In this document: positions 1-53,229 of the stretch, piece by piece
Position numbering within the stretch: position 1 is the first letter of the stretch
Layout: each line of letters begins with the position of its first letter
NCBI GenBank assembly: GCA_019828595.1
Contig: JAHQRK010000051.1
Coordinates: 1-64,000, forward strand
Length of the DNA: 64,000 nucleotides
Reading direction: 5' to 3'
DNA from: Aphanomyces cochlioides
Lineage: Eukaryota > Oomycota > Saprolegniomycetes > Saprolegniales > Verrucalvaceae
Made by a program: the position numbers and the translations under genes
The notes under the pieces: model-generated
The model's database searches: none
Told to the model about the DNA's origin: nothing
Seen by the model: only the letters and a program-made list of their open reading frames with translations

Positions 1-3000
1 AGGTTGCAAGTAGAACAAGCGCGAGTTGACAGGCAGCATGTTGAACAACAGTCGAAACCAAACGTCGCCATGGAGGGAAGCGGCCAACGGCATGTTTTGC
101 GGATGAGTCGCACGTAGGTCGCAATATCTTGTTGCTCGACGCGGGACGATGTCGCCACTGGGTGCGGTTTTCCATCCGAAGGGGCGTGATGCGCCAAACG
201 TGATACGAGTCGCTTGGGCCAACGCTCGAAGGATAGCAATTGATCTTTGAAAAGTGCCTTGAAAGGGTGACTGTTGTATCGATATCGGTCAAAGCAGTTC
301 CAGTTCGAACGCCAGACGTGCGGAGGACTTGGTCGAATATCTTGGTGAGGTGGCTATAAACTTGACCAGCACGTTCGGGTGCTGCAAATCCCATCGCGCC
401 GTTCGCTTGTAACGTCACTTGTGCCGCACGGTTGTTGGATGACAGTCGATCAATAAACGCAGCTCTTGTAGGCCATGTCCCTTGCCGTGTCAAGAAGTCT
501 TTGAGGCAGTGGAAACCGTTTTGAGACGCATGTCTACACCATCGACGACACAGAGCAGTCTTCACGACATTTGATGTAGCACCCGCAGGACCAACTTGCA
601 GAGCGGGTAGGGATGTCAGCCACACGGGGAGGTTCAAAAGTTCTTCGAGGCTTGGTGGCGAAGCGGTTCGCTTGGCCATAGGTGTGGCGGCCCATTGATG
701 CCAAATGTCGTGCCAAAGAGGATGCAGCTCCCACAAAAACAACCACTTGGAGCTGTGGTTGGGGAAGTACGTGAGAAAGTCGAACGGGTGGGTGTCGCGA
801 TACAGCTTGTTCATGACACGGGAAAATTGTCTCTTGACAAGCAACTTCCATGGGGCAAATGTGTTGGGTGAATTGGGCTGCATCAAGAGTTGGAGCCGCA
901 GCAGTCGCTGAGTCCGAAGCTTCGAAGCCACATGCGGAATACCGAGGCCGAGTTTTTGATCGAACTGCCACTTGCGGCAAATAGTTGAGCGATGATGGTC
1001 GGTGATTTGCGTCTTCCGACCAAGGATGTACTTGTTGACCATTCTTTGCCAAACGGCAACCATCGTTGGAGGCACATACACTGCAGCCGTGACATGCCAT
1101 AACAACGACAACAACATGGTCGATACGATGAGTTTGCGGCCTTGGATGGTTCGCGCACGACTTCCCCACGTTTGAAACGCAGCCAGAAACTTGTCGTTCA
1201 GTTGCTGGACTTGAAAATCGCGCGGCAGTCGGTGGCCAAAGAGAATACCAAGGTATTTCACTGGCTTCTCGCTCGGCAAGACGTTCAAGAGGCCACCATC
1301 GTCGATGTCTTCGATATCGAGATTGTTGTTGAGCGCCAAAGTCATGCACTTGGCAACGTTGAGACGAGCTCCAGACACAGAGCAAAAGTCTTCGACAATT
1401 GCCATTTGCTCGACCGCCGCTTGGAGGGATGACGAGAGTAGAGTCGTGTCGTCGGCAAAGTAGATGCTCGTCAGTGAGTCTCCATTTGGAAGGGGAATAC
1501 CAAAATCAGGAGATCCGCGTAGCATTTCGCCGAGTGGCTCGAGGTAAAGTACGAAGAGCATGCACGATAGGGGGCAACCTTGCTTGACTCCGCGGGTAGG
1601 CCGTATGGTAGGGCCAAGACCGTCGTTGAAAATGATCTGGACCAGAGGCGTATTGTAAAGCAACTGAACCCAAGACACAAATGTGGGACCGATGTTCATC
1701 TCCTTGAGTACGTCGAAGAGAAAGCCTTGGTCAACCATATCGTATGCCTTGGAAAAGTCGAGAAACGTCGCGTAGTAGTCGTGGTCTTCATTGGTACAGA
1801 AAGTCTGCAATGCTTGTACCAGCATCACGTGGTCGTGCAAGCGACGGCCAGGGACAAAACCAGCTTGGCTTGGGTGAGCGAGGTATGGGCAACTTGTGCA
1901 AGACGGTAGGCCAGCGCCCGCGATAGAATCTTGACTTCAACCGACATGAGAGTAATCGGCCGATAGTTGCCAGGGTCGCCTCTGTCTCCAGCCTTGAACA
2001 AGAGCGCCACTGCACTTCGGCGTTGTTGGAGCAGGAGGTGACCGTGATGGGTGAGTTGGTAGTTGAACACCTTGAGCAGGATTTGGGCGAATACGTCCGG
2101 GGAGACTTGAAAGAAAGCTGCAGGCCAGCCGTCTGAACCAGGAGACTTGTTCGGGTTCATAGACTTGAGCGCGCCGCACAGGTCTTCCGCCGTGAGAGGA
2201 CTTTCCAGAGCGTCGCGCTGTTCTTGAGTGAGACGTCGAGTAATGGCTCGAATGATAGCTCGGCGACGGGCCCGATTCAACGGTGGTTGGTCTCTTGGAG
2301 TGACCATGATGTTTTTCCAATGAGACGTAAAACCAGCCTTGACTTCAGACGGGTCAGTCGACGTTACACCGTTGATTGTCACGGACGAGAGCGGCACTTT
2401 GATCCCCTTGGGTCGACGAAAAAAGTGACTGGTACCTCGCTCGTTGACGTTGGCGTGAAAGTCGAATTGCTGATCCAGGTTGAACTGTCGGTACTCGCTG
2501 CGGGCAGTGTCAAGGGCTTGACGGGCGGTATTAACAATGGATGTCTCAACGAGTCCCATGTCGAATGCTCGGCGGGAAGTAAGCCACTTCATCTTGAGGC
2601 TGTTGAGTGTGTACTTCATCGAGTCAATGTACTGGCGATGACTGACTTGGAGACGCTTCTTCATTCTCTTCAACCAGCCGTACCACTTTGCGCCAAAGTT
2701 TTGAGTGTCGTCTGCGCGCATCTCGTCCAAAAGTTGATTGGCTTCGGCCTTGATCGCTGCGACTACTTGAGGGTTCTTTAAGAGCTCACGGGGGAGGCGC
2801 CAGTAACTTCGGTCGGGAGCTCGCTGCTCGCAGGAGAGGACCACTTTGTGTTCCATGTGGTCGCCTGCAAAGCTGCTTGGGGAATAGCTTGAACGTGCGT
2901 ACGTTTGAGCGACGATATCTTGGTCCACAAACAGGTAGTCGAGGCGGTTGCTTCGACCAGGGCCGCTGTAAACGCGCTCGTTGGGGTGGTGCATCCTCCA

Positions 3001-3648
3001 CGCATCGATAACACCAAGTGCTGAAAGCCAGGCAATGCATTCCGCCTTACCAGCGTTGTGGTCTTGGCGAGGTCGAGTCGCGTCCAGATGCTCCTCCAGG
3101 GGTAAGTTGAAATCGCCTCCGACAAAGTGAATGCTGTCGTCTTCAAAGTCGCGAGGCAGATCGTCGAAAAACGGTGCTCGAGAGTGAGCGATAACCGGGG
3201 CATAGACGTTGTGAAAGTACACAGGAACGCCGTCCCACTGAGTTCGAACAACCATGTATCTTCCAGGTCGGTCATGGGTGGTCAAGTGTTGCAGGTCGAG
3301 GAATCCAGGCATGGATCCATGGAAATACGATGCCACACCGCAGCGCCGATTGTTGAGTGAGTCGACGCGATCAGTGCGGAGATCGTTGGTGAAGAGCTTG
3401 TATTTGCCAACGCCTACTTCGTTGTTGAGGTGGAGTTGGAAGGTTTCGAGATGTTTGATGTTATTGATTTTGGTTTCTTGAAAGAAAACGGCTTGGGTCG
3501 GAATTTGGAGTCGCCGCGCCACAAGATGTCCGTTGTCTTTCAGCCCATTGAGGTTGGCAGTGGTCAGTTCGAGTATGGGGAACTTGGTGAAGAGACCGGC
3601 CGCGACCACCTTAGCCACGGAACGCGACAGACGTTGCGTTCGCAACAT
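1..3648 (-). pseudogene. Element A ORF2 (endonuclease-reverse transcriptase), A0 copy, frameshifted and partial
   Basis: The reading frame starts at 3648 (MLRTQRL). It holds the AP-endonuclease domain and the first part of the reverse transcriptase. It leaves frame near 1887-1889, where a G run has three bases instead of the four seen in other copies. Further one-base changes against A1 lie near 605-612 (two, compensating), 271 and 74-80. The C-terminal ~170 residues are outside the window. The protein is described in full under the intact copy at 36589-40743. Either this is a decayed copy or the changes are homopolymer errors at a poorly covered sequence edge. Confidence 0.85.
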
Positions 3649-6647
3649 CTCCCAGCATGAGTGTCTGAGTGTCGGGTTGGAACATCACTTGGTTGTCGAA
3701 GGTGGGGTCCAGGGAGCCAGCCTCATGGAATTCCAGGATCGTGGTCAAGACGTATCGCGACTTCTCGTCTTCGCCGGCATACAACGTTTCCATGATATTC
3801 CAAATCAAGAGGCCGAAGCTCGTGTCAAGCAATATGGCAGATAGCGATACGCCCGACAAACAGCGGGAGCCCAAATGAGAAGCCAGTGCAGTGACCGGGT
3901 ACTTGGTAGAGGCCACGATCGCAGCATCACTGTTGTAGTACGTTGGAGCATGAATGGCCAAGAGAACTTCTGCCACAGCCAACACTTCTTCCAGGTCGCC
4001 GCGGTGGAGGGAAATCTCGTCGCCGTCAATGGTAGTATCGATGAAGTCGATGTTCTTGAATAGCTCGATGTTGCTGAAGATGGCTTGAACGTGCTCGCGG
4101 GTCATACGCACACCCCACGTCAATGAGTACAGCTGGGAGAACGGTTTGTCTCCACCCCAAGTCGCTCGAAGCCACCGATGGAGGAGGCGTTGTCTCACAA
4201 AGTACTCAAAGCATGCACGGTCTTCATCAAAAAGTCGGTGCAGTTGCAAGCCAAATTCAATCGGGGAACGCTCGAGATGGCTACACAGCATGTCGACGCG
4301 GCCGTCGTTGATGAGTTGGGCAAGGTTGAACGAGCTGTTGGTCACTGCATCTTCGACTTGGGTTGAGAGATGCAATGGAACTTTGGCTGTCTTGGTGTCG
4401 AGGTCTTGTAGTTCGGCGAGAATTTCGTCAAGAGACATTTCTATGCGCTTGGGAACGCCATCTTGGATCTTGGTGCCGCCGACAAATTGACCGGACGTAG
4501 GGAGGTGGGGAGGGTCATCCGAGACGTCCAGCTTGGGTACAATCGTTGAGATCTTGTAATCGCCAAACTGAGCAACGTGTTCCTCGGGGTTGACACACAC
4601 ACGTTCGTCGAGGGCTTCAAACATGTTGGGCGAAATCCAAGAGCGGCCATGCTCGGGGGAATCCACTTGCTGTTGCGTCTTCTTGCGCTTGCCTCTCGAC
4701 GCCTTGACGCCAGTCCACTGCGGAGGGTTGGCTTGCGCAGTTTTCGACGTTTTGGCGCCTTGGGAGTCGAAGAAGGCGGGTTGGTTGGGCTGGGAGCTGG
4801 CTTGTTCAATCCATATTGGCGGGACGTTGCATCAAGGTCCAAACGAACCAAGTTCTTGTCACGAAAATACCACCCTTGACCGTACACGCGGAGACAACGG
4901 CCCTTGAAAAGAATTTCTTCGACGAGACGGCCGTCGCGCTGTATGGTCGTTGGTACGGAGGTTCCTTCAAAGTAAAGGCGGTACCGAGAGCTCGCCATAC
5001 CGCTTGAAGAGGAAACGTTGGGGTAGGAGCCCCACAGGAAGCGTGGCTCCAACTTGGTCATGACGTCGAAGATCAGGCGCTCTTCGTCTTGATCTTGAAG
5101 GCCTTGAGGGATGTCCATGAAAAATCCGCCGAGGACGTGCGGAACGTTCATCGTGAAGTGTTGGGACGAGCCATCTCGAGCGACTTGAATCTTAAACGCG
5201 ATGCCTCGCAGCTTCGTCATCGCTTCGTGAGAGGCAACACCCACTTGAGCATGCGGTTCGGGATGTCCTTCTCGCATCTCACAATGTCAGCAATCGCAGT
5301 GTCGAGGCCGAGGGCTTGGTTGTCGAAAAGGATCGATGCCATGGCAGCTGAAACATCGATGGTCTTCGTGTGTGCACCCGTGGGCATCTGCAACCAGCCG
5401 ACGATGCCGCGCGCCGAGTGCTTCTGGATCGGGAGGGTGTCTTCAAACGTGAGGGTTCCAGCAGCACGCTTGCGAAGGAGGGGTTCGAGTTCCTCCATCG
5501 TGGGCTGGTAAGGAGCAACGTCCTTGGTCTTGATGGCCTTGGCAGACTGAGACCGCTGTTGCGCTTGGAAGGCCCATACGTCGTTGGGGGCCTGGCGGTT
5601 GTTGGGTTGGCCACGGCCAGGTGTCTGGGCTCCGCCAGATTGAGAATGTTTTCCAAATGCGATCCGGGTGAAGCCTGAGACGATGGCTGGCGGACTGAGT
5701 GAGAGTCCGAGTCGTGCGTCAGACCAACACTCAAGCGTGCGTCAGAGGCTTGGTCTTGTCCGGACCCTGTCCCATGGTGGACAGAGTCACACGTTTGACC
5801 TTCACTCGCGTTGGACTTCGAGAAGCTTCCATGGGTGACTTGGTCTTGAGTATTCCATGACCAACACTGGCCACAGGGTTGTTCGCGATTGTTCCAGATC
5901 TTGCCCGATGATTCTTCGAGAAGAGACCATCACTCATGGAGCGACTAGTCTCGATGGGATCTTGACCTGTCGCCAGAGTGGACTTGTCGCTCGGGGGATT
6001 CTTCGAGAAGGGACCTTCACTCAGGGATGGACTGTTCTCGAATCTTCCTTGACATGTCGTCATGTTGACGTCGGTGCTTGAGCGAGTCTTCGAGAAGCCA
6101 CTATCACTCGTCGAGAGAACATTCTCGAAAGGAACAGAACCCAACGGAGTCTTGCCAGGCAAGCCACCATCACTCACGATGGACGTGGTTGATGGAGATT
6201 CTTCGGGCAAGGTCGTTGACGTCATGAGCACATCTTCCGAGGTTGGAACGCCGTCTTGCCAGGCTTCGTCGCAAGTGTCAGAGGTCGTTGGATCATTCGC
6301 GGGATCGCAAGCCTTCGTCGAGCGAGTCACAGGCAAGGGTTCAAAACGGCGCGGTTTCGAAGGGGTTGCACGTTGACGTGGAAACGGAACGCGCGTTGGA
6401 GTAGGGAGCGGATTCGTAGACGCGTCATGATGCGAAGCGTTGGAAGCATCGTCGACGTCCTCTTCCAACGACGACGCCATGTCGGTATCGCTTGGGATGG
6501 GTCAGCAACGACGATGACGTCCATATCGCTGGGGCTGGACGCCGAGGGAGAGAACGCGGAGGAGCAAGATGGGGCACGAGGGTTGGTCGAGCGGGTAGCA
6601 ACCATATTGTCAGATAGCGTAGAGTGGTACTGCGGGGTAGCTGGCAA
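3611..6647 (-). pseudogene. Element A ORF1, A0 copy, multiply frameshifted
   Basis: This is the same protein as the intact ORF1 at 10947-13988. It is broken by single-base losses near 4745 (C), 5240-5242 (C run), 5645-5646 (A run), 5855-5856 (C run) and 6494-6496 (G run). The C-terminal 351 residues (3611-4666) remain open. All five lesions shorten short homopolymer runs, a pattern more typical of long-read consensus error than of random decay. The start at 6647 lies about 11 bases inside the element's 5' end. Confidence 0.85.
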
Positions 6648-6658
6648 ATTGGAAACTG

Positions 6659-6672
6659 GGTCGTATAGCTCA
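6659..6672 (+). repeat. tRNA-Ile 5' remnant (target-site duplication) between A0 and A1
   Basis: GGTCGTATAGCTCA, tRNA positions 1-14, ends exactly where the A1 3' end begins. It lacks the rest of the tRNA. It is the left duplication of the A1 insertion and, at the same time, the right duplication of A0. Confidence 0.92.
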
Positions 6673-6829
6673 CTGCAATGGGGAGGTATATTAATAGACT
6701 TTCAATATCTACTAATACTAATATTGCCTACTAACGGCTCATCCCACTTCCAAATGCTTCAGCAGATTTTCTACTTTGGGCTTTGGAGTACAGCGATTTT
6801 TGACTTGTTGAATAAATACTTGGGGCTTG

Positions 6830-9800
6830 TTAATTTGGGGCTGAAGGTTGGAGCGCGAGCAAAGTCGGGTACTTGGCTACCAGTGGGCGATAGACAGGTT
6901 GTCTATGCAAAGTATTGATTGCTGAAATTGCTTCCACTCGTTGAGGGCTGTCAACTTCTTGGAGGCGAAGCCATCTGCGGATCGATGCATGCCATCGGAT
7001 GAAGCTGACTTCTTGCCAAATTTCTGGCGGAGGCGGCTTCTTCGATTCGAACTTGGCGGCGTTGTGCGTTGTCCAAATATAGTGAAGGTTGGAAGCACAC
7101 AGAAGAGCCCAGAGCACAAACAGTATGTCTTGAAGCTGGCTACCGCGTTCGTTGACTTGAAAGCGGTCGATGTTGGTGATGGCAGTCCAATCGAAATTGA
7201 CACCGAAGCATCGCCAAGCGGTCGCGTGAAAACGCCAAAGGGGATACACGCGAGAGCAGGTGTGGAAGGCGTGGTGTTGGTTCTCCGGTGCGTCGCAATT
7301 GGTATAGACACAGCAAATTACGTCTGGCTGCTGAGGTTGCAAGTAGAACAAGCGCGAGTTGACAGGCAGCATGTTGAACAACAGTCGAAACCAAACGTCG
7401 CCATGGAGGGGAGGCGGCCAACGGCATGTTTTGCGGATGAGTCGCACGTAGGTCGCAATATCTTGTTGCTCGACGCGGGACGATGTCGCCACTGGGTGCG
7501 GTTTTCCATCCGAAGGGGCGTGATGCGCCAAACGTGATACGAGTCGCTTGGGCCAACGCTCGAAGGATAGCAATTGATCTTTGAAAAGTGCCTTGAAAGG
7601 GTGACTTGTTGTATCGATATCGGTCAAAGCAGTTCCAGTTCGAACGCCAGACGTGCGGAGGACTTGGTCGAATATCTTGGTGAGGTGGCTATAAACTTGA
7701 CCAGCACGTTCGGGTGCTGCAAATCCCATCGCGCCGTTCGCTTGTAACGTCACTTGTGCCGCACGGTTGTTGGATGACAGTCGATCAATAAACGCAGCTC
7801 TTGTAGGCCATGTCCCTTGCCGTGTCAAGAAGTCTTTGAGGCAGTGGAAACCGTTTTGAGACGCATGTCTACACCATCGACGACACAGAGCAGTCTTCAC
7901 GACATTTGATGTAGCACCCGCAGGACCAACTTGCAGAGCGGGGTAGGATGTCAGCCACACGGGGAGGTTCAAAAGTTCTTCGAGGCTTGGTGGCGAAGCG
8001 GTTCGCTTGGCCATAGGTGTGGCGGCCCATTGATGCCAAATGTCGTGCCAAAGAGGATGCAGCTCCCACAAAAACAACCACTTGGAGCTGTGGTTGGGGA
8101 AGTACGTGAGAAAGTCGAACGGGTGGGTGTCGCGATACAGCTTGTTCATGACACGGGAAAATTGTCTCTTGACAAGCAACTTCCATGGGGCAAATGTGTT
8201 GGGTGAATTGGGCTGCATCAAGAGTTGGAGCCGCAGCAGTCGCTGAGTCCGAAGCTTCGAAGCCACATGCGGAATACCGAGGCCGAGTTTTTGATCGAAC
8301 TGCCACTTGCGGCAAATAGTTGAGCGATGATGGTCGGTGATTTGCGTCTTCCGACCAAGGATGTACTTGTTGACCATTCTTTGCCAAACGGCAACCATCG
8401 TTGGAGGCACATACACTGCAGCCGTGACATGCCATAACAACGACAACAACATGGTCGATACGATGAGTTTGCGGCCTTGGATGGTTCGCGCACGACTTCC
8501 CCACGTTTGAAACGCAGCCAGAAACTTGTCGTTCAGTTGCTGGACTTGAAAATCGCGCGGCAGTCGGTGGCCAAAGAGAATACCAAGGTATTTCACTGGC
8601 TTCTCGCTCGGCAAGACGTTCAAGAGGCCACCATCGTCGATGTCTTCGATATCGAGATTGTTGTTGAGCGCCAAAGTCATGCACTTGGCAACGTTGAGAC
8701 GAGCTCCAGACACAGAGCAAAAGTCTTCGACAATTGCCATTTGCTCGACCGCCGCTTGGAGGGATGACGAGAGTAGAGTCGTGTCGTCGGCAAAGTAGAT
8801 GCTCGTCAGTGAGTCTCCATTTGGAAGGGGAATACCAAAATCAGGAGATCCGCGTAGCATTTCGCCGAGTGGCTCGAGGTAAAGTACGAAGAGCATGCAC
8901 GATAGGGGGCAACCTTGCTTGACTCCGCGGGTAGGCCGTATGGTAGGGCCAAGACCGTCGTTGAAAATGATCTGGACCAGAGGCGTATTGTAAAAGCAAC
9001 TGAACCCAAGACACAAATGTGGGACCGATGTTCATCTCCTTGAGTACGTCGAAGAGAAAGCCTTGGTCAACCATATCGTATGCCTTGGAAAAGTCGAGAA
9101 ACGTCGCGTAGTAGTCGTGGTCTTCATTGGTACAGAAAGTCTGCAATGCTTGTACCAGCATCACGTGGTCGTGCAAGCGACGGCCAGGGACAAAACCAGC
9201 TTGGCTTGGGTGAGCGAGGTATGGGGCAACTTGTGCAAGACGGTAGGCCAGCGCCCGCGATAGAATCTTGACTTCAACCGACATGAGAGTAATCGGCCGA
9301 TAGTTGCCAGGGTCGCCTCTGTCTCCAGCCTTGAACAAGAGCGCCACTGCACTTCGGCGTTGTTGGAGCAGGAGGTGACCGTGATGGGTGAGTTGGTAGT
9401 TGAACACCTTGAGCAGGATTTGGGCGAATACGTCCGGGGAGACTTGAAAGAAAGCTGCAGGCCAGCCGTCTGAACCAGGAGACTTGTTCGGGTTCATAGA
9501 CTTGAGCGCGCCGCACAGGTCTTCCGCCGTGAGAGGACTTTCCAGAGCGTCGCGCTGTTCTTGAGTGAGACGTCGAGTAATGGCTCGAATGATAGCTCGG
9601 CGACGGGCCCGATTCAACGGTGGTTGGTCTCTTGGAGTGACCATGATGTTTTTCCAATGAGACGTAAAACCAGCCTTGACTTCAGACGGGTCAGTCGACG
9701 TTACACCGTTGATTGTCACGGACGAGAGCGGCACTTTGATCCCCTTGGGTCGACGAAAAAAGTGACTGGTACCTCGCTCGTTGACGTTGGCGTGAAAGTC

Positions 9801-10984
9801 GAATTGCTGATCCAGGTTGAACTGTCGGTACTCGCTGCGGGCAGTGTCAAGGGCTTGACGGGCGGTATTAACAATGGATGTCTCAACGAGTCCCATGTCG
9901 AATGCTCGGCGGGAAGTAAGCCACTTCATCTTGAGGCTGTTGAGTGTGTACTTCATCGAGTCAATGTACTGGCGATGACTGACTTGGAGACGCTTCTTCA
10001 TTCTCTTCAACCAGCCGTACCACTTTGCGCCAAAGTTTTGAGTGTCGTCTGCGCGCATCTCGTCCAAAAGTTGATTGGCTTCGGCCTTGATCGCTGCGAC
10101 TACTTGAGGGTTCTTTAAGAGCTCACGGGGAGGCGCCAGTAACTTCGGTCGGGAGCTCGCTGCTCGCAGGAGAGGACCACTTTGTGTTCCATGTGGTCGC
10201 CTGCAAAGCTGCTTGGGGAATAGCTTGAACGTGCGTACGTTTGAGCGACGATATCTTGGTCCACAAACAGGTAGTCGAGGCGGTTGCTTCGACCAGGGCC
10301 GCTGTAAACGCGCTCGTTGGGGTGGTGCATCCTCCACGCATCGATAACACCAAGTGCTGAAAGCCAGGCAATGCATTCCGCCTTACCAGCGTTGTGGTCT
10401 TGGCGAGGTCGAGTCGCGTCCAGATGCTCTTCCAGGGGTAAGTTGAAATCGCCTCCGACAAAGTGAATGCTGTCGTCTTCAAAGTCGCGAGGCAGATCGT
10501 CGAAAAACGGTGCTCGAGAGTGAGCGATAACCGGGGCATAGACGTTGTGAAAGTACACAGGAACGCCGTCCCACTGAGTTCGAACAACCATGTATCTTCC
10601 AGGTCGGTCATGGGTGGTCAAGTGTTGCAGGTCGAGGAATCCAGGCATGGATCCATGGAAATACGATGCCACACCGCAGCGCCGATTGTTGAGTGAGTCG
10701 ACGCGATCAGTGCGGAGATCGTTGGTGAAGAGCTTGTATTTGCCAACGCCTACTTCGTTGTTGAGGTGGAGTTGGAAGGTTTCGAGATGTTTGATGTTAT
10801 TGATTTTGGTTTCTTGAAAGAAAACGGCTTGGGTCGGAATTTGGAGTCGCCGCGCCACAAGATGTCCGTTGTCTTTCAGCCCATTGAGGTTGGCAGTGGT
10901 CAGTTCGAGTATGGGGAACTTGGTGAAGAGACCGGCCGCGACCACCTTAGCCACGGAACGCGACAGACGTTGCGTTCGCAACAT
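6830..10984 (-). pseudogene. Element A ORF2, A1 copy, two compensating-sign frameshifts
   Basis: The copy is full length (4155 nt), with start MLRTQRL at 10984 and stop at 6830. Two one-base indels break it. A G run at 10127-10130 has four bases where others have five, right after the endonuclease domain. An A run at 8992-8995 has four bases where others have three, inside the reverse transcriptase between the FSKAYD and GVKQG motifs. The three pieces 10115-10984, ~9000-10120 and 6830-9016 together cover the whole protein. The two changes cancel in length. Both lie in homopolymers, so sequencing error is possible. Confidence 0.9.
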
Positions 10985-13900
10985 CTCCCAGCATGAGTGT
11001 CTGAGTGTCGGGTTGGAACATCACTTGGTTGTCGAAGGTGGGGTCCAGGGAGCCAGCCTCATGGAATTCCAGGATCGTGGTCAAGACGTATCGCGACTTC
11101 TCGTCTTCGCCGGCATACAACGTTTCCATGATATTCCAAATCAAGAGGCCGAAGCTCGTGTCAAGCAATATGGCAGATAGCGATACGCCCGACAAACAGC
11201 GGGAGCCCAAATGAGAAGCCAGTGCAGTGACCGGGTACTTGGTAGAGGCCACGATCGCAGCATCACTGTTGTAGTACGTTGGAGCATGAATGGCCAAGAG
11301 AACTTCTGCCACAGCCAACACTTCTTCCAGGTCGCCGCGGTGGAGGGAAATCTCGTCGCCGTCAATGGTAGTATCGATGAAGTCGATGTTCTTGAATAGC
11401 TCGATGTTGCTGAAGATGGCTTGAACGTGCTCGCGGGTCATACGCACACCCCACGTCAATGAGTACAGCTGGGAGAACGGTTTGTCTCCACCCCAAGTCG
11501 CTCGAAGCCACCGATGGAGGAGGCGTTGTCTCACAAAGTACTCAAAGCATGCACGGTCTTCATCAAAAAGTCGGTGCAGTTGCAAGCCAAATTCAATCGG
11601 GGAACGCTCGAGATGGCTACACAGCATGTCGACGCGGCCGTCGTTGATGAGTTGGGCAAGGTTGAACGAGCTGTTGGTCACTGCATCTTCGACTTGGGTT
11701 GAGAGATGCAATGGAACTTTGGCTGTCTTGGTGTCGAGGTCTTGTAGTTCGGCGAGAATTTCGTCAAGAGACATTTCTATGCGCTTGGGAACGCCATCTT
11801 GGATCTTGGTGCCGCCGACAAATTGACCGGACGTAGGGAGGTGGGGAGGGTCATCCGAGACGTCCAGCTTGGGTACAATCGTTGAGATCTTGTAATCGCC
11901 AAACTGAGCAACGTGTTCCTCGGGGTTGACACACACACGTTCGTCGAGGGCTTCAAACATGTTGGGCGAAATCCAAGAGCGGCCATGCTCGGGGGAATCC
12001 ACTTGCTGTTGCGTCTTCTTGCGCTTGCCTCTCGACGCCTTGACGCCAGTCCACTGCGGAGGGTTGGCTTGCGCAGTTTTCCGACGTTTTGGCGCCTTGG
12101 GAGTCGAAGAAGGCGGGTTGGTTGGGCTGGGAGCTGGCTTGTTCAATCCATATTGGCGGGACGTTGCATCAAGGTCCAAACGAACCAAGTTCTTGTCACG
12201 AAAATACCACCCTTGACCGTACACGCGGAGACAACGGCCCTTGAAAAGAATTTCTTCGACGAGACGGCCGTCGCGCTGTATGGTCGTTGGTACGGAGGTT
12301 CCTTCAAAGTAAAGGCGGTACCGAGAGCTCGCCATACCGCTTGAAGAGGAAACGTTGGGGTAGGAGCCCCACAGGAAGCGTGGCTCCAACTTGGTCATGA
12401 CGTCGAAGATCAGGCGCTCTTCGTCTTGATCTTGAAGGCCTTGAGGGATGTCCATGAAAAATCCGCCGAGGACGTGCGGAACGTTCATCGTGAAGTGTTG
12501 GGACGAGCCATCTCGAGCGACTTGAATCTTAAACGCGATGCCTCGCAGCTTCGTCATCGCTTCGTGAGAGGCAACACCCCACTTGAGCATGCGGTTCGGG
12601 ATGTCCTTCTCGCATCTCACAATGTCAGCAATCGCAGTGTCGAGGCCGAGGGCTTGGTTGTCGAAAAGGATCGATGCCATGGCAGCTGAAACATCGATGG
12701 TCTTCGTGTGTGCACCCGTGGGCATCTGCAACCAGCCGACGATGCCGCGCGCCGAGTGCTTCTGGATCGGGAGGGTGTCTTCAAACGTGAGGGTTCCAGC
12801 AGCACGCTTGCGAAGGAGGGGTTCGAGTTCCTCCATCGTGGGCTGGTAAGGAGCAACGTCCTTGGTCTTGATGGCCTTGGCAGACTGAGACCGCTGTTGC
12901 GCTTGGAAGGCCCATACGTCGTTGGGGGCCTGGCGGTTGTTGGGTTGGCCACGGCCAGGTGTCTGGGCTCCGCCAGATTGAGAAATGTTTTCCAAATGCG
13001 ATCCGGGTGAAGCCTGAGACGACGGCTGGCGGACTGAGTGAGAGTCCGAGTCGTGCGTCAGACCAACACTCAAGCGTGCGTCAGAGGCTTGGTCTTGTCC
13101 GGACCCTGTCCCATGGTGGACAGAGTCACACGTTTGACCTTCACTCGCGTTGGACTTCGAGAAGCTTCCATGGGTGACTTGGTCTTGAGTATTCCCATGA
13201 CCAACACTGGCCACAGGGTTGTTCGCGATTGTTCCAGATCTTGCCCGATGATTCTTCGAGAAGAGACCATCACTCATGGAGCGACTAGTCTCGATGGGAT
13301 CTTGACCTGTCGCCAGAGTGGACTTGTCGCTCGGGGGATTCTTCGAGAAGGGACCTTCACTCAGGGATGGACTGTTCTCGAATCTTCCTTGACATGTCGT
13401 CATGTTGACGTCGGTGCTTGAGCGAGTCTTCGAGAAGCCACTATCACTCGTCGAGAGAACATTCTCGAAAGGAACAGAACCCAACGGAGTCTTGCCAGGC
13501 AAGCCACCATCACTCACGATGGACGTGGTTGATGGAGATTCTTCGGGCAAGGTCGTTGACGTCATGAGCACATCTTCCGAGGTTGGAACGCCGTCTTGCC
13601 AGGCTTCGTCGCAAGTGTCAGAGGTCGTTGGATCATTCGCGGGATCGCAAGCCTTCGTCGAGCGAGTCACAGGCAAGGGTTCAAAACGGCGCGGTTTCGA
13701 AGGGGTTGCACGTTGACGTGGAAACGGAACGCGCGTTGGAGTAGGGAGCGGATTCGTAGACGCGTCATGATGCGAAGCGTTGGAAGCATCGTCGACGTCC
13801 TCTTCCAACGACGACGCCATGTCGGTATCGCTTGGGGATGGGTCAGCAACGACGATGACGTCCATATCGCTGGGGCTGGACGCCGAGGGAGAGAACGCGG

Positions 13901-13988
13901 AGGAGCAAGATGGGGCACGAGGGTTGGTCGAGCGGGTAGCAACCATATTGTCAGATAGCGTAGAGTGGTACTGCGGGGTAGCTGGCAA
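10947..13988 (-). CDS. Element A ORF1 protein, intact (1013 aa), putative RNA-binding/particle protein
   Basis: LINE ORF1 proteins bind the element RNA and form the particle used for retrotransposition; that role is inferred from position and order. Residues 1-380 are rich in Ser, Thr, Pro and Asp and look disordered. They contain a degenerate repeat of about 29 residues ending in G-x-FSK, near residues 184-187, 212-216, 241-245 and 274-278. Residues ~380-610 form a folded region with an alternating hydrophobic pattern that may be RRM-like. Basic stretches KAPKRRK (631-637) and RGKRKK (653-658) resemble nuclear localisation signals. The C-terminal ~350 residues are globular and conserved among copies. 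I see no CCHC zinc knuckle. The stop overlaps the ORF2 start by 38 nt. The second Met, at residue 15, is an alternative start. Confidence 0.85.
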   Translation of the reverse strand: MPATPQYHSTLSDNMVATRSTNPRAPSCSSAFSPSASSPSDMDVIVVADPSPSDTDMASSLEEDVDDASNASHHDASTNPLPTPTRVPFPRQRATPSKPRRFEPLPVTRSTKACDPANDPTTSDTCDEAWQDGVPTSEDVLMTSTTLPEESPSTTSIVSDGGLPGKTPLGSVPFENVLSTSDSGFSKTRSSTDVNMTTCQGRFENSPSLSEGPFSKNPPSDKSTLATGQDPIETSRSMSDGLFSKNHRARSGTIANNPVASVGHGNTQDQVTHGSFSKSNASEGQTCDSVHHGTGSGQDQASDARLSVGLTHDSDSHSVRQPSSQASPGSHLENISQSGGAQTPGRGQPNNRQAPNDVWAFQAQQRSQSAKAIKTKDVAPYQPTMEELEPLLRKRAAGTLTFEDTLPIQKHSARGIVGWLQMPTGAHTKTIDVSAAMASILFDNQALGLDTAIADIVRCEKDIPNRMLKWGVASHEAMTKLRGIAFKIQVARDGSSQHFTMNVPHVLGGFFMDIPQGLQDQDEERLIFDVMTKLEPRFLWGSYPNVSSSSGMASSRYRLYFEGTSVPTTIQRDGRLVEEILFKGRCLRVYGQGWYFRDKNLVRLDLDATSRQYGLNKPAPSPTNPPSSTPKAPKRRKTAQANPPQWTGVKASRGKRKKTQQQVDSPEHGRSWISPNMFEALDERVCVNPEEHVAQFGDYKISTIVPKLDVSDDPPHLPTSGQFVGGTKIQDGVPKRIEMSLDEILAELQDLDTKTAKVPLHLSTQVEDAVTNSSFNLAQLINDGRVDMLCSHLERSPIEFGLQLHRLFDEDRACFEYFVRQRLLHRWLRATWGGDKPFSQLYSLTWGVRMTREHVQAIFSNIELFKNIDFIDTTIDGDEISLHRGDLEEVLAVAEVLLAIHAPTYYNSDAAIVASTKYPVTALASHLGSRCLSGVSLSAILLDTSFGLLIWNIMETLYAGEDEKSRYVLTTILEFHEAGSLDPTFDNQVMFQPDTQTLMLGDVANATSVAFRG

Positions 13989-14001
13989 ATTGGAAACTGG
14001 G

Positions 14002-14074
14002 GGTCGTATAGCTCAGTCGGTAGAGCATGGTGCTAATAACGCCAGGGTCCTGGGTTCGAGCCCCAGTATGACCA
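14002..14074 (+). tRNA. trnI(aau): tRNA-Ile (anticodon AAU), copy 1
   Basis: The 73-nt gene folds as a standard cloverleaf. The acceptor stem is GGTCGTA/TATGACC with one G-T pair and discriminator A. The D arm is GCTC/GAGC, the anticodon stem TGGTG/CGCCA with loop CTAATAA, and the T stem CTGGG/CCCAG with loop TTCGAGC. The anticodon AAT (A34 expected to become inosine) reads isoleucine codons. The internal Pol III promoter is the A box TAGCTCAGTCGG at 14009-14020 and the B box GGTTCGAGCCC at 14053-14063. No CCA is encoded. The gene reads away from the A1 element, whose 5' end touches its first base. All eight copies in the window are identical over these 73 bases. Confidence 0.97.
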
Positions 14075-15074: not shown

Positions 15075-15088
15075 GGTCGTATAGCTCA
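15075..15088 (+). repeat. tRNA-Ile 5' remnant (left target duplication of B1)
   Basis: GGTCGTATAGCTCA in its native upstream context (spacer S1), followed directly by the B1 3' end. Confidence 0.93.
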
Positions 15089-16779
15089 ATGACAATCGGG
15101 GTATATTTGACCTTTAACCCCTATAAATATTTGCCTAGACGACCCAATGGGGAACAAGGACTACTAAGTTCTACTCGAAAGCCACTTGAATCGTTGCGTG
15201 AGTTCGATTGAGCTCTTGCATTGTCTTGAAATCTTGAGACTTCTTTACACAAGTGTCGCTCGCAAGTTCTTCTCCCAAAACCAAGTGTAGTTGGTATGAG
15301 ACTTGAGTTTTTCGACTATCTCGGAGACTTGCATTGCTTCATCACTGTCCATTGTAGGATCACGGAGCATTCGTCTGATATTTGCGGTCCACGAAACAAG
15401 AGATACTTCCTTGACCGCCTGGATGTATGGCACTGTTTTGCCTTCAAACTTGGTTCGATTGCGATGAATCCAAAAGTCCCGTAGCAAAGATGAAACGAGA
15501 AGGACCCACAAACGACGAATCACTGAAAAATGAGACACCCATTCTTCAGAAACCGCGAATTCGTCGAGGTTGATAATCGTATTCCATGTAAATGGAATAC
15601 CAAACGGCCGCCACGCTGCTTGATGCCAATTCCACACAGGCTTGACAAACTTGCAGTCGAACAGGATGTGTTGTATCGTTTCGACGGCTGAGCAACCAGG
15701 AAAGGAGCATTCGATAATGCTAGGGTTGGTGTCTTGAAGGAAAAAGAAGCGAGAGTTGACGGGTAGCATCCGAAACAAGATTCGCCACCACACATCGGCT
15801 TGAACAGGAGTTGGATATCGCATCAAAGGTTTCACAGTCTTGTTCATGTATTTCTTGATCGCCAAATCATTGTTTCTTGAATCGCTCGACAAGGGGTGCT
15901 GTTTGGTGAGTAGTGGCGCGCAAAAGCAAATCGATCGGATGTACTTGCGCGGCCATTGTTGAAAAGGAACAAAGACATTCTTCCAAACTTGTCCGACGGG
16001 GATTTGAACTTCATGATTGGGAGGCACAGCTTCCACGAGAGGGATACCCAGTACTTGCCATACAGTGGTCGCAATGAGTGAAAGCAGGGAATACAAATGG
16101 CGAAACACGCGTGGAAAATCATCGCCAGGGAACCGCCAAACGTAAGGCTCCATTTGCAACTTGAATTCTTCATAGGAGGGCCACACGCGTTGTGTGGTGA
16201 CGAAATCGTCCAAGCAATGCAAGCCTTCTTGGGCGAGGAACTTGTAGAAGGGACGATGATGTTTGAGGGCGACAGCAAGCGAGGTTGGTCCATTGGAACC
16301 AGGAACCAAAAACAGCGGATGAATTTGCAGCCAAACAGACATGGTAGGGAGCTGAGATTGTGTCGGCGTTTCAGGACATTTGCGCGTAAGGGGGATACGA
16401 TGCCAGTTGGCCCAGATTTTCCGCCACAACAAAGGGAGTACTTCAAGTCGCATGTGATTTGTGTTGTGGTTGGGATGATACATGAGGCAGTCCCACGACG
16501 AGTATCTTGCGAACGGCTCCATGCACCTTCGAAAGAGCTGCTTCGGGAGAACAGACCATAACGATGGTTCTTCGTTGTCGGTCTGAACAAGGAATTGAAG
16601 TCGCTGAACACGTTGAGCACGAATTCTTGACGCAATATGCGGAATCCTGAGACCCAGGCTGGGATGATACGCCACGCCAGAGTTGATCAAGGACATGTGC
16701 TTGTCTTCCTTGTGTCGCTTTCTTGTCAAGATGAACTTGTACACCATGGACTGCCACTTGGCGACCGAGTCTTCAGGGA
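15089..16779 (-). mobile_element. Element B copy B1, 5'-truncated LINE (1691 bp)
   Basis: B is a second LINE family at the same tRNA site. Only its 3' portion is present: about 510 codons of the ORF2 C-terminus and a 156-nt 3' UTR (15089-15244) without poly(A). The 3'-terminal bases resemble those of A: TGnCAATnGGGG followed by GTATATT on the plus strand. The 5' truncation point is the same in all eight copies. So B inserted once and was then amplified with its tRNA and spacer. Confidence 0.92.
15245..16777 (-). pseudogene. Element B ORF2 C-terminal fragment (B1)
   Basis: This is an open frame of about 510 codons (500 from the first Met at 16747) with no endonuclease or polymerase catalytic motifs. 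It aligns with residues ~860-1384 of the element A ORF2. Shared motifs include MVxKxILxRK, LGLxIPHxAS, DVWxRxLFxMLPVNSR and a finger of form C-x4-C-x7-H-x4-C. Identity is clearly partial, so B is a sister family rather than a copy of A. The frame runs open into the truncation. The fragment cannot be active on its own. Confidence 0.88.
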
Positions 16780-16793
16780 GGTCGTATAGCTCA
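16780..16793 (+). repeat. tRNA-Ile 5' remnant between B1 and A2
   Basis: The 14-bp target copy was made by the B insertion and then reused by A. It is followed directly by the A2 3' end. Confidence 0.93.
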
Positions 16794-16950
16794 CTGCAAT
16801 GGGGAGGTATATTAATAGACTTTCAATATCTACTAATACTAATATTGCCTACTAACGGCTCATCCCACTTCCAAATGCTTCAGCAGATTTTCTACTTTGG
16901 GCTTTGGAGTACAGCGATTTTTGACTTGTTGAATAAATACTTGGGGCTTG

Positions 16951-19900
16951 TTAATTTGGGGCTGAAGGTTGGAGCGCGAGCAAAGTCGGGTACTTGGCTA
17001 CCAGTGGGCGATAGACAGGTTGTCTATGCAAAGTATTGATTGCTGAAATTGCTTCCACTCGTTGAGGGCTGTCAACTTCTTGGAGGCGAAGCCATCTGCG
17101 GATCGATGCATGCCATCGGATGAAGCTGACTTCTTGCCAAATTTCTGGCGGAGGCGGCTCCTTCGATTCGAACTTGGCGGCGTTGTGCGTTGTCCAAATA
17201 TAGTGAAGGTTGGAAGCACACAGAAGAGCCCAGAGCACAAACAGTATGTCTTGAAGCTGGCTACCGCGTTCGTTGACTTGAAAGCGGTCGATGTTGGTGA
17301 TGGCAGTCCAATCGAAATTGACACCGAAGCATCGCCAAGCGGTCGCGTGAAAACGCCAAAGGGGATACACGCGAGAGCAGGTGTGGAAGGCGTGGTGTTG
17401 GTTCTCCGGTGCGTCGCAATTGGTATAGACACAGCAAATTACGTCTGGCTGCTGAGGTTGCAAGTAGAACAAGCGCGAGTTGACAGGCAGCATGTTGAAC
17501 AACAGTCGAAACCAAACGTCGCCATGGAGGGGAGGCGGCCAACGGCATGTTTTGCGGATGAGTCGCACGTAGGTCGCAATATCTTGTTGCTCGACGCGGG
17601 ACGATGTCGCCACTGGGTGCGGTTTTCCATCCGAAGGGGCGTGATGCGCCAAACGTGATACGAGTCGCTTGGGCCAACGCTCGAAGGATAGCAATTGATC
17701 TTTGAAAAGTGCCTTGAAAGGGTGACTTGTTGTATCGATATCGGTCAAAGCAGTTCCAGTTCGAACGCCAGACGTGCGGAGGACTTGGTCGAATATCTTG
17801 GTGAGGTGGCTATAAACTTGACCAGCACGTTCGGGTGCTGCAAATCCCATCGCGCCGTTCGCTTGTAACGTCACTTGTGCCGCACGGTTGTTGGATGACA
17901 GTCGATCAATAAACGCAGCTCTTGTAGGCCATGTCCCTTGCCGTGTCAAGAAGTCTTTGAGGCAGTGGAAACCGTTTTGAGACGCATGTCTACACCATCG
18001 ACGACACAGAGCAGTCTTCACGACATTTGATGTAGCACCCGCAGGACCAACTTGCAGAGCGGGGTAGGATGTCAGCCACACGGGGAGGTTCAAAAGTTCT
18101 TCGAGGCTTGGTGGCGAAGCGGTTCGCTTGGCCATAGGTGTGGCGGCCCATTGATGCCAAATGTCGTGCCAAAGAGGATGCAGCTCCCACAAAAACAACC
18201 ACTTGGAGCTGTGGTTGGGGAAGTACGTGAGAAAGTCGAACGGGTGGGTGTCGCGATACAGCTTGTTCATGACACGGGAAAATTGTCTCTTGACAAGCAA
18301 CTTCCATGGGGCAAATGTGTTGGGTGAATTGGGCTGCATCAAGAGTTGGAGCCGCAGCAGTCGCTGAGTCCGAAGCTTCGAAGCCACATGCGGAATACCG
18401 AGGCCGAGTTTTTGATCGAACTGCCACTTGCGGCAAATAGTTGAGCGATGATGGTCGGTGATTTGCGTCTTCCGACCAAGGATGTACTTGTTGACCATTC
18501 TTTGCCAAACGGCAACCATCGTTGGAGGCACATACACTGCAGCCGTGACATGCCATAACAACGACAACAACATGGTCGATACGATGAGTTTGCGGCCTTG
18601 GATGGTTCGCGCACGACTTCCCCACGTTTGAAACGCAGCCAGAAACTTGTCGTTCAGTTGCTGGACTTGAAAATCGCGCGGCAGTCGGTGGCCAAAGAGA
18701 ATACCAAGGTATTTCACTGGCTTCTCGCTCGGCAAGACGTTCAAGAGGCCACCATCGTCGATGTCTTCGATATCGAGATTGTTGTTGAGCGCCAAAGTCA
18801 TGCACTTGGCAACGTTGAGACGAGCTCCAGACACAGAGCAAAAGTCTTCGACAATTGCCATTTGCTCGACCGCCGCTTGGAGGGATGACGAGAGTAGAGT
18901 CGTGTCGTCGGCAAAGTAGATGCTCGTCAGTGAGTCTCCATTTGGAAGGGGAATACCAAAATCAGGAGATCCGCGTAGCATTTCGCCGAGTGGCTCGAGG
19001 TAAAGTACGAAGAGCATGCACGATAGGGGGCAACCTTGCTTGACTCCGCGGGTAGGCCGTATGGTAGGGCCAAGACCGTCGTTGAAAATGATCTGGACCA
19101 GAGGCGTATTGGAAAGCAACTGAACCCAAGACACAAATGTGGGACCGATGTTCATCTCCTTGAGTACGTCGAAGAGAAAGCCTTGGTCAACCATATCGTA
19201 TGCCTTGGAAAAGTCGAGAAACGTCGCGTAGTAGTCGTGGTCTTCATTGGTACAGAAAGTCTGCAATGCTTGTACCAGCATCACGTGGTCGTGCAAGCGA
19301 CGGCCAGGGACAAAACCAGCTTGGCTTGGGTGAGCGAGGTATGGGGCAACTTGTGCAAGACGGTAGGCCAGCGCCCGCGATAGAATCTTGACTTCAACCG
19401 ACATGAGAGTAATCGGCCGATAGTTGCCAGGGTCGCCTCTGTCTCCAGCCTTGAACAAGAGCGCCACTGCACTTCGGCGTTGTTGGAGCAGGAGGTGACC
19501 GTGATGGGTGAGTTGGTAGTTGAACACCTTGAGCAGGATTTGGGCGAATACGTCCGGGGAGACTTGAAAGAAAGCTGCAGGCCAGCCGTCTGAACCAGGA
19601 GACTTGTTCGGGTTCATAGACTTGAGCGCGCCGCACAGGTCTTCCGCCGTGAGAGGACTTTCCAGAGCGTCGCGCTGTTCTTGAGTGAGACGTCGAGTAA
19701 TGGCTCGAATGATAGCTCGGCGACGGGCCCGATTCAACGGTGGTTGGTCTCTTGGAGTGACCATGATGTTTTTCCAATGAGACGTAAAACCAGCCTTGAC
19801 TTCAGACGGGTCAGTCGACGTTGCACCGTTGATTGTCACGGACGAGAGCGGCACTTTGATCCCCTTGGGTCGACGAAAAAAGTGACTGGTACCTCGCTCG

Positions 19901-21104
19901 TTGACGTTGGCGTGAAAGTCGAATTGCTGATCCAGGTTGAACTGTCGGTACTCGCTGCGGGCAGTGTCAAGGGCTTGACGGGCGGTATTAACAATGGATG
20001 TCTCAACGAGTCCCATGTCGAATGCTCGGCGGGAAGTAAGCCACTTCATCTTGAGGCTGTTGAGTGTGTACTTCATCGAGTCAATGTACTGGCGATGACT
20101 GACTTGGAGACGCTTCTTCATTCTCTTCAACCAGCCGTACCACTTTGCGCCAAAGTTTTGAGTGTCGTCTGCGCGCATCTCGTCCAAAAGTTGATTGGCT
20201 TCGGCCTTGATCGCTGCGACTACTTGAGGGTTCTTTAAGAGCTCACGGGGGAGGCGCCAGTAACTTCGGTCGGGAGCTCGCTGCTCGCAGGAGAGGACCA
20301 CTTTGTGTTCCATGTGGTCGCCTGCAAAGCTGCTTGGGGAATAGCTTGAACGTGCGTACGTTTGAGCGACGATATCTTGGTCCACAAACAGGTAGTCGAG
20401 GCGGTTGCTTCGACCAGGGCCGCTGTAAACGCGCTCGTTGGGGTGGTGCATCCTCCACGCATCGATAACACCAAGTGCTGAAAGCCAGGCAATGCATTCC
20501 GCCTTACCAGCGTTGTGGTCTTGGCGAGGTCGAGTCGCGTCCAGATGCTCCTCCAGGGGTAAGTTGAAATCGCCTCCGACAAAGTGAATGCTGTCGTCTT
20601 CAAAGTCGCGAGGCAGATCGTCGAAAAACGGTGCTCGAGAGTGAGCGATAACCGGGGCATAGACGTTGTGAAAGTACACAGGAACGCCGTCCCACTGAGT
20701 TCGAACAACCATGTATCTTCCAGGTCGGTCATGGGTGGTCAAGTGTTGCAGGTCGAGGAATCCAGGCATGGATCCATGGAAATACGATGCCACACCGCAG
20801 CGCCGATTGTTGAGTGAGTCGACGCGATCAGTGCGGAGATCGTTGGTGAAGAGCTTGTATTTGCCAACGCCTACTTCGTTGTTGAGGTGGAGTTGGAAGG
20901 TTTCGAGATGTTTGATGTTATTGATTTTGGTTTCTTGAAAGAAAACGGCTTGGGTCGGAATTTGGAGTCGCCGCGCCACAAGATGTCCGTTGTCTTTCAG
21001 CCCATTGAGGTTGGCAGTGGTCAGTTGAGTATGGGGAACTTGGTGAAGAGACCGGCCGCGACCACCTTAGCCACGGAACGCGACAGACGTTGCGTTCGCA
21101 ACAT
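16951..21104 (-). pseudogene. Element A ORF2, A2 copy, one frameshift near the start
   Basis: One C is missing between 21026 and 21027, about 26 codons after the start at 21104. Downstream, 1342 residues are open from an internal Met at 20979, covering most of the endonuclease, the reverse transcriptase and the finger. A Tyr-to-Ser change sits in the VQLLYNTP segment of the reverse transcriptase. Starting at 20979 would lose the N-terminal catalytic Asn of the endonuclease. Confidence 0.9.
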
Positions 21105-22189
21105 CTCCCAGCATGAGTGTCTGAGTGTCGGGTTGGAACATCACTTGGTTGTCGAAGGTGGGGTCCAGGGAGCCAGCCTCATGGAATTCCAGGATCGTGG
21201 TCAAGACGTATCGCGACTTCTCGTCTTCGCCGGCATACAACGTTTCCATGATATTCCAAATCAAGAGGCCGAAGCTCGTGTCAAGCAATATGGCAGATAG
21301 CGATACGCCCGACAAACAGCGGGAGCCCAAATGAGAAGCCAGTGCAGTGACCGGGTACTTGGTAGAGGCCACGATCGCAGCATCACTGTTGTAGTACGTT
21401 GGAGCATGAATGGCCAAGAGAACTTCTGCCACAGCCAACACTTCTTCCAGGTCGCCGCGGTGGAGGGAAATCTCGTCGCCGTCAATGGTAGTATCGATGA
21501 AGTCGATGTTCTTGAATAGCTCGATGTTGCTGAAGATGGCTTGAACGTGCTCGCGGGTCATACGCACACCCCACGTCAATGAGTACAGCTGGGAGAACGG
21601 TTTGTCTCCACCCCAAGTCGCTCGAAGCCACCGATGGAGGAGGCGTTGTCTCACAAAGTACTCAAAGCATGCACGGTCTTCATCAAAAAGTCGGTGCAGT
21701 TGCAAGCCAAATTCAATCGGGGAACGCTCGAGATGGCTACACAGCATGTCGACGCGGCCGTCGTTGATGAGTTGGGCAAGGTTGAACGAGCTGTTGGTCA
21801 CTGCATCTTCGACTTGGGTTGAGAGATGCAATGGAACTTTGGCTGTCTTGGTGTCGAGGTCTTGTAGTTCGGCGAGAATTTCGTCAAGAGACATTTCTAT
21901 GCGCTTGGGAACGCCATCTTGGATCTTGGTGCCGCCGACAAATTGACCGGACGTAGGGAGGTGGGGAGGGTCATCCGAGACGTCCAGCTTGGGTACAATC
22001 GTTGAGATCTTGTAATCGCCAAACTGAGCAACGTGTTCCTCGGGGTTGACACACACACGTTCGTCGAGGGCTTCAAACATGTTGGGCGAAATCCAAGAGC
22101 GGCCATGCTCGGGGGAATCCACTTGCTGTTGCGTCTTCTTGCGCTTGCCTCTCGACGCCTTGACGCCAGTCCACTGCGGAGGGTTGGCT
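21067..22189 (-). pseudogene. Element A ORF1 C-terminal fragment (A2)
   Basis: About 374 codons remain open to the truncation point (first Met at 22122), corresponding to ORF1 residues ~640-1013. The disordered repeat region and the putative RNA-binding region are missing. Confidence 0.88.
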
Positions 22190-22190
22190 A

Positions 22191-22263
22191 GGTCGTATAG
22201 CTCAGTCGGTAGAGCATGGTGCTAATAACGCCAGGGTCCTGGGTTCGAGCCCCAGTATGACCA
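22191..22263 (+). tRNA. trnI(aau): tRNA-Ile (anticodon AAU), copy 2
   Basis: Sequence identical to copy 1. It is preceded by the truncated 5' end of A2 rather than by native flank. Confidence 0.97.
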
Positions 22264-27914: not shown

Positions 27915-27987
27915 GGTCGTATAGCTCAGTCGGTAGAGCATGGTGCTAATAACGCCAGGGTCCTGGGTTCGAGCCCCAGTATGACCA
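27915..27987 (+). tRNA. trnI(aau): tRNA-Ile (anticodon AAU), copy 3
   Basis: Identical to copy 1, directly after the A3 truncation point (CGACGG then AGGTCG). Confidence 0.97.
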
Positions 27988-41829: not shown

Positions 41830-41830
41830 A

Positions 41831-53228: not shown

Positions 53229-53229
53229 A

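Follow-up and report, generated by a model that had tools for sequence, protein, structure and literature searches.

Among target-specific long interspersed nuclear elements (LINEs), Mutsu, Keno and Dewa are members of the Tx1 clade. They target 5S ribosomal RNA, U2 small nuclear RNA (snRNA) and the transfer RNA (tRNA)-Leu spacer, respectively (PMC3706591); they resemble the elements described here in their fixed sites within small-RNA loci, but the sites described for them are not tRNA A boxes. The elements described here, LINE families A, B, C and D of the oomycete Aphanomyces cochlioides, share one strict insertion point inside the tRNA A box. Families A and B occur side by side in the first 64,000 nucleotides (nt) of contig JAHQRK010000051.1 (the window), which lies within an array of tRNA-Ile(AAT) genes; the genome comprises 76.2 Mb in 94 contigs.

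LINEs within tRNA genes have been described among the NeSL-related non-long-terminal-repeat (non-LTR) retrotransposons, with NeSL-1_TV in tRNA-Pro, LIN15_SM in tRNA-Arg and LIN25_SM in tRNA-Glu, and in this respect they are like families A to D (PMC4640811). These elements are, however, early-branched, carry a restriction-like endonuclease and are each reported for one tRNA (PMC4640811), whereas family A has an endonuclease of the apurinic/apyrimidinic (AP) type and uses many tRNAs. Utopia LINEs of oomycetes, like A, insert at a constant site in small-RNA genes that form arrays, but their target is U2 snRNA and their endonuclease is restriction-like (PMC4640811). Family A does not fit into the NeSL, LIN or Utopia groups: its endonuclease is AP-type and its reverse transcriptase is closer to that of L1 than to that of R2, in searches of which none was aimed at a restriction-like domain.

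The dictyostelid elements TRE5, TRE3, NLTR-A and NLTR-B are AP-endonuclease LINEs tied to tRNA genes, and TRE5, too, is oriented opposite to the tRNA (PMC5911963, PMC5006619). An earlier note on the window, made from the sequence alone, had correctly stated that Dictyostelium TREs insert beside tRNA genes; dictyostelid LINEs are found outside the gene at variable distances (~50 bp upstream, ~100 bp downstream or 2-6 bp upstream), a pattern that A does not show, since it inserts at one base inside. The same note had taken Dada families for restriction-like endonuclease elements, which was mistaken; Dada elements are DNA transposons that have a DDE transposase and duplicate 6-7 bp, and several of the families target the A box (tRNA nt 8-13), some at TAGCTC, including tRNA-Ile and tRNA-Tyr (PMC8869645, PMC3706591). 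Families A to D differ from them in having a reverse transcriptase, 5' truncation and a duplication of ~15 bp over the tRNA 5' part; membership of A in Dada was considered and rejected on the grounds of its reverse transcriptase, its AP endonuclease and its duplication of 14-16 bp. In the literature searched, with Repbase reports and most subscription papers outside the search, no AP-endonuclease LINE inside tRNA genes was found.

Insertion point in the tRNA A box

On the plus strand, the array units in the window consist of tRNA-Ile, a spacer of ~1 kb, a 14-nt stub, LINE B, another 14-nt stub, LINE A and the next tRNA-Ile; both LINEs lie on the minus strand, A with varying 5' truncations and B with a constant one. 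The (T)CGTATAGCTCA head is present 25 times and continues nine times into the A 3' end (CTGCAATGGGG...), eight times into the B 3' end (ATGACAATCGGGG...) and eight times into the rest of tRNA-Ile(AAT), whose bodies were called by ARAGORN. Each of the nine 3' ends of LINE A is preceded by tRNA nt 1-14 (GGTCGTATAGCTCA), and a BLAST search of the window with A found the same nine ends and no further one; the A 5' end abuts a tRNA-Ile gene in 8/8 cases. On the tRNA strand, the A 3' ends thus all follow ...TAGCTCA (tRNA nt 8-14) and the tRNA resumes from G15 onward beyond the A 5' end; the cut point lies between A14 and G15, within the A box. The A copies in the window, of 423, 687, 2934, 5397 and 7329 bp, share one end point at tRNA-Ile (BLAST), and since their lengths are quite different, plain tandem duplication cannot produce this pattern.

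The tails of the four families were then searched genome-wide as patterns with and without the TAGCTCA head, allowing up to 3 mismatches for A, B and C; a backward control pattern gave no match in any search. The A tail was found 225 times without and 222 times with the head; among the matches listed, the exact A tails occupy the same 100 places as the exact headed A pattern, so that the head is exactly TAGCTCA in 100/100. Exact tRNA-Ile junctions account for 46 of the A 3' ends; beyond contig C36, A sites were counted only, save those at tRNA-Ile, which were read. The 20 non-Ile A sites that were read, on 10 contigs, all follow TAGCTCA and have seven tRNA-type heads: CCGGTCA (Tyr), GCCGCGA (Phe), GCCCGTC and TCCCGTT (Lys), TCCTCTA (Asn), GGGGATG (Ala-like) and GGGGTTG. 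The tRNA genes hit, among the sites read, are therefore those for Ile, Phe, Tyr, Lys and Asn and an Ala-like one; at the 5' junction or downstream, ARAGORN called Ile, Phe, Lys-CTT, Lys-TTT and the chimeric Asn discussed below, and Tyr with the intron option. The earlier note had placed a LINE between tRNA nt 14 and 15, with a primer strand ending in TAGCTCA, and both claims are borne out by the 9/9 ends in the window, by 23 distinct insertion events (see below) and by the 100/100 exact A tails among the matches listed. It had also assumed specificity for tRNA-Ile, which fails, since only 46 of 225 A 3' ends lie there and 20 others were read at seven other heads; the tabulation of 3' flanks that it had set beforehand as a test thus gave a divided answer, most copies being outside tRNA-Ile but the junctions not being scattered.

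The other families use the same point. All 50 B 3' ends are headed at the tolerance given above, with exactly TAGCTCA in 49 and TAGCTTA in one, and 44 of the 50 B copies lie on contigs of Ile arrays. For C, 203 headed places compare with 204 tails, and the heads among the exact tails listed are TAGCTCA in 99/100 and TGGCTCA in 1/100 (C15:1207852, L082), a head also used by D beside a tRNA-like body (L067). The possibility that the C copy at L082 is the one outside the headed count was rejected, as TGGCTCA is within the tolerance. D 3' ends were found at 79 headed and 78 headless places, 75 of them common to both; the headed ones read TAGCTCA in 62 cases and another spelling in 17 (eight TGGCTCA, four TAGCTTA, two TAGCGCA, two TAGATCA and one TAGGTCA). 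Besides two headless-only D tails considered further below, a third is inserted 7 bp further on within another D 3' end (L089), doubling GTGTACA.

Target site duplication and restoration of the tRNA gene

The 5' junctions were tabulated for the window and other sampled loci (L086 not among them) wherever the upstream 20-mer equals A exactly, a definition that leaves out B, non-chimeric C, D and L081. The resulting 27 rows represent 23 events distinct by head and length, 22 of A and one of a C/A chimera, which span five tRNA head types and the chimeric Asn locus. The 14-nt heads are identical at both sides in 20 of the 21 events that have both heads in one sequence; one extra base precedes the 5'-junction head in 13 of these 21, and in 10 of the 13 it equals the -1 base of the target, giving a 15-bp duplication. 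At one further event (tRNA-Tyr, 433), two additional bases match; overall the duplication, usually of 15 bp, ranges from 14 to 16 bp. The earlier note had given 14-15 bp; both lengths do occur, but 15 bp prevails, with the base before the tRNA copied as well.

As the stagger spans the 5' part of the tRNA, insertion normally re-creates the gene next to the element 5' end, while the 3' end keeps a stub of 14 nt. The rebuilding of the gene is seen directly in a tRNA-Tyr array on contig C13, where the spacing of empty units is ~1184 bp and that of occupied units is greater. An empty unit (C13:1400561) and the filled unit that follows it (C13:1401742 to 1409079) are identical over 60/60 bp upstream and over 222/222 bp from the tRNA start onward; the filled unit differs by an A of ~7.32 kb (both ends read, not the middle) with CCGGTCATAGCTCA flanking it on each side.

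Endonuclease and reverse transcriptase of family A

The uninterrupted open reading frame (ORF) 2 of A (36589-40743, minus strand) encodes 1384 amino acids with an AP endonuclease at about residues 25-270 and a reverse transcriptase at residues 559-802. The reverse transcriptase is matched by RVT_1 (PF00078, E 3.4e-34); together with a fixed 3' end, variable 5' truncation and a target site duplication, this identifies A as a non-LTR retrotransposon. Truncation to varying extents at the 5' end is typical of target-primed reverse transcription. The endonuclease match (PF03372, E 7.6e-4) falls under the cut-off in A and is over it in the relatives P0010 and P0020. Among solved structures, human L1 ORF2p is nearest to A ORF2 (E 5.3e-57, residues 125-812), with R2 at E 5.8e-25; a 13-sequence profile (A1) gave E 2.9e-93 for L1 and E 3.9e-39 for R2. 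A predicted model of the first 300 residues, with a predicted local distance difference test score (pLDDT) of 82.6, has its best fold matches in human L1 ORF2p and its endonuclease domain, with a template modelling score, normalised by target, of 0.72-0.76 for the isolated domain. The motifs QE (57-58), GDFN (178-181), LDY (236-238) and DH (263-264), which we take to be the catalytic motifs of the endonuclease, are invariant or nearly so among the ORF2 relatives, those with names coming from Aphanomyces astaci, A. invadans, Achlya hypogyna and Thraustotheca clavata. By its modelled L1/exonuclease III-type N-terminal fold and the affinity of its ORF2 to L1 ORF2p, A is an AP-endonuclease LINE of the L1 group, and the AP-type endonuclease proposed in the earlier note is upheld by the model and the fold search. 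No Pfam match was found for ORF1.

Relatedness and age of the four families

The ORF2 of A is 64% identical to that of C, 38% to that of D and 34% to the C-terminal part in B, so that the insertion site is shared across a deep divergence. In the ORF2 tree, D and P0024 stand at the base of the group of A in a branching order that the tree does not settle, and the long rows P0041, P0042 and P0044 are unsure. A search of IMG/VR for relatives gave 13 pattern matches, none of them confirmed. That C might be A with a longer 3' region was rejected, since a long C copy (L099) has its own ORF2; a tblastn match at L052, tried as evidence for C, was discarded because it is the A copy present there, and the idea that D is non-coding was dropped, a long D copy bearing an ORF2. 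At L099, A and C have a common 5'-terminal stretch (A 7250-7327, 83%), and their bodies are ~66% alike in DNA. One chimera (L061:101-1647) joins a C 3' region (~958 bp) to A 151-742 (99.5%), followed by a tRNA-Phe head, a structure suggestive of template switching between RNAs of the two families. At L065, two C copies point apart with their 3' ends ~0.9 kb from each other, both at TCCTCTATAGCTCA heads; at L084 and L075, D 3' ends are paired 55-57 bp apart and D copies are truncated to ~40 bp. Diverged LINE fragments (L068:2-145 and L071:1337-1480; 48-69% protein identity to A and its relatives) adjoin D tRNA-type heads upstream, a hint of earlier families at the same site.

The sense-strand tails end in ...CCCCATTGCAG (A), ...CCCCGATTGTCAT (B), ...CCCCATTGACAT (C) and ...GCGATTGTACAC (D); ATTG near the end is common to all four, and none of these four 3' ends has poly(A). 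Of 63 rows compared, some of which show the same copy twice, 56 have A copies in eight head contexts with 0-2/419 differences to the window copy, the seven rows with more than 100 ungapped mismatches (an indel or a short copy) being left out; A is therefore recent. Since the restored tRNA lies on the 5' side of the element, a later insertion separates the tRNA from the element already present, and the stacks give an order: B then A in the window units, A then C at L010, A then A at L051 and C then A at L066. As A and C stack both ways, they overlap in time.

Irregular junctions and alternative explanations

Several observations weigh against a single, always faithfully duplicated site inside tRNA genes. 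In three of the 13 one-base events the extra 5'-junction base is unlike that of the target; the GGGGTTG head, at two of the 20 A sites read, has no settled tRNA type; three A tails and one C tail fall outside the headed counts; two of the 78 D tails have heads unlike the A box, with no tRNA found there by ARAGORN, and for some D heads no tRNA gene is evident. At L081, ~104 bp of unassigned sequence separates A from tRNA-Lys(TTT), and the body of the Ala-like target at L053 has no normal T arm. At L098 (2821-2923), a B 5' junction at tRNA-Lys(CTT) has no clean duplication and an A box that reads TAGTTTA, on account of which it was rejected as a clean B insertion; it may be a duplication with later change, or a microhomology junction. 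At L054, finally, tRNA nt 1-7 are replaced by A sequence and the acceptor stem is lost: a 2926-bp A ends there in its own internal ...ATAGCTC, merged with the TAGCTCA of the tRNA (microhomology) without duplication, and leaves a chimeric tRNA-Asn head, CGAATGATAGCTCA. The claim of the earlier note that the gene is rebuilt each time therefore holds as a rule, as in the tRNA-Tyr pair, but not at L054; rebuilding by duplication is usual, not invariable. A second, later A was inserted at L054 at the surviving TAGCTCAG and duplicated CGAATGATAGCTCA; as it used the chimeric head, tRNA nt 1-7 are dispensable for targeting, and the second cut is set by distance.

Two further observations concern these irregular loci. 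The tRNA-Ala-like unit at L053, with a normal 5' half and an abnormal T arm, is present twice in tandem together with its A insertion. D lies within repeated sequence at L072, L076 and L078, with the head ACTTCTGTAGCTTA and no evident tRNA gene.

It is possible, if somewhat doubtful in our view, that the RNA polymerase III machinery (TFIIIC/TFIIIB) assembled at tRNA genes does the main targeting and that the endonuclease only picks the base. By chance, TAGCTCAG alone would be expected ~2,325 times in 76.2 Mb, yet the 20 A sites read (two unsettled) and the 46 tRNA-Ile sites have tRNA-type heads; Dictyostelium TRE5, moreover, requires the B box (PMC5911963). However, the heads are strict among the matches listed (TAGCTCA in 100/100 for A, 49/50 for B and 99/100 for C, with other spellings in 17/79 for D), the position is fixed at the sites read, unlike that of TREs, and the L053 target, as it stands now, is without a normal T arm and B box. 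If a LINE with no site preference had landed once or twice and a few units had then been duplicated in tandem, this would agree with the near identity of the window units, with the same B truncation in eight units and with the recurring A truncations of 5397 and 2934; but the same junction is found with numerous truncations and in numerous kinds of tRNA gene over several contigs, and B, C and D use it too, so that tandem duplication is a highly improbable explanation. As the sole cause it is rejected by the independent truncations, although unit duplication does add copies. That separate families each serve one tRNA species (A serving Ile), as in most Dada families, is scarcely credible, because the 44/50 B copies on Ile-array contigs are outweighed by near-identical A copies (<=2/419 differences) at seven non-Ile heads (GGGGTTG, TCCCGTT, GCCGCGA, GGGGATG, CGAATGA, CCGGTCA and GCCCGTC), which refute one-tRNA specificity for A.

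Proposed insertion mechanism

We consider it very probable that the four families are non-LTR retrotransposons with a single insertion position inside tRNA genes and that the gene is usually restored when they insert. In the A box, the AP endonuclease would nick the strand in tRNA sense between A14 and G15 (5'-TAGCTCA^G-3'). Reverse transcription of the element RNA, which has a fixed 3' end without poly(A), would be primed by the ...TAGCTCA-3'OH released in this way, and the other strand would be cut ~15 bp upstream, at tRNA nt 1 or immediately ahead of it. The restored gene is a target again, so that elements stack head to tail with the newest beside the tRNA; unequal exchange would then multiply whole tRNA units with their insertions. 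We infer nicking, strand order, priming and activity from the junctions; the cause of the specificity and the expression of the tRNA genes are likewise presumed.

In source copies, TGAGCTA follows the element 3' end in sense, and read-through RNA with TGAGCTA could pair with the primer TAGCTCA-OH, which is an idea only. The wider proposal, that an old AP-endonuclease LINE lineage of four families lives on a self-renewing A-box target and that TAGCTCA is read twice, by the endonuclease and through pairing of the primer with read-through TGAGCTA, is plausible and is put forward tentatively.

Organization of the window

Positions 1-6658 belong to another A copy, whose 5' end precedes the tRNA-Ile nt 1-14 stub (6659-6672, plus strand), a copy of the target site duplication at the 3' junction of the full-length A. 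This A of 7329 bp (minus strand) has its 3' end at 6673 and its 5' end at 14001, where it abuts a complete tRNA-Ile(AAT) (14002-14074, plus strand; ARAGORN). Its ORF1 region is open and encodes 1013 amino acids (10947-13988, minus strand), and its ORF2 is in pieces (6830-9016, 8841-10376 and 10115-10984); ORF2 is intact in 5'-truncated neighbors, such as the copy at 36589-40743 described above. Next come a tRNA nt 1-14 stub (15075-15088, plus strand) at the 3' end of a 5'-truncated LINE B (15089-16779, minus strand), which has the identical truncation in all eight units and a 500-amino-acid ORF that matches the C-terminal part of A ORF2; a further tRNA nt 1-14 stub (16780-16793, plus strand), which adjoins an A 3' end; and the A in question, 5'-truncated to ~5397 bp (16794-22190, minus strand), before a tRNA-Ile called by ARAGORN (22191-22263, plus strand). 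The following A copies are all on the minus strand, 5'-truncated and succeeded by tRNA-Ile: two of ~2934 bp (24981-27914, tRNA 27915-27987; 30707-33640, tRNA 33641-33713), one of ~5397 bp (36432-41830, tRNA 41831-41903), one of ~423 bp (44623-45046, tRNA 45047-45119), another of ~5397 bp (47833-53229, tRNA 53230-53302) and one of ~687 bp (56015-56702, tRNA 56703-56775). The last A (59495-64000, minus strand) is cut by the window end.

Implications

Tandem tRNA arrays are also described in the oomycete Phytophthora infestans (PMC9584435), and with such arrays in an oomycete many targets would be on offer. With the families found here, the elements known to cleave within tRNA genes would come to include an AP-endonuclease lineage of L1 type. 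By a duplication that covers the 5' part of the gene, a multicopy host gene is normally spared and the supply of targets is not exhausted; the stacks by each tRNA record the order of insertion, and the 14-nt stubs are traces of past events. An L1-type endonuclease with a fixed site and natural variants, strict in A, B and C and looser in D, is also a good system for studying how such enzymes read DNA.

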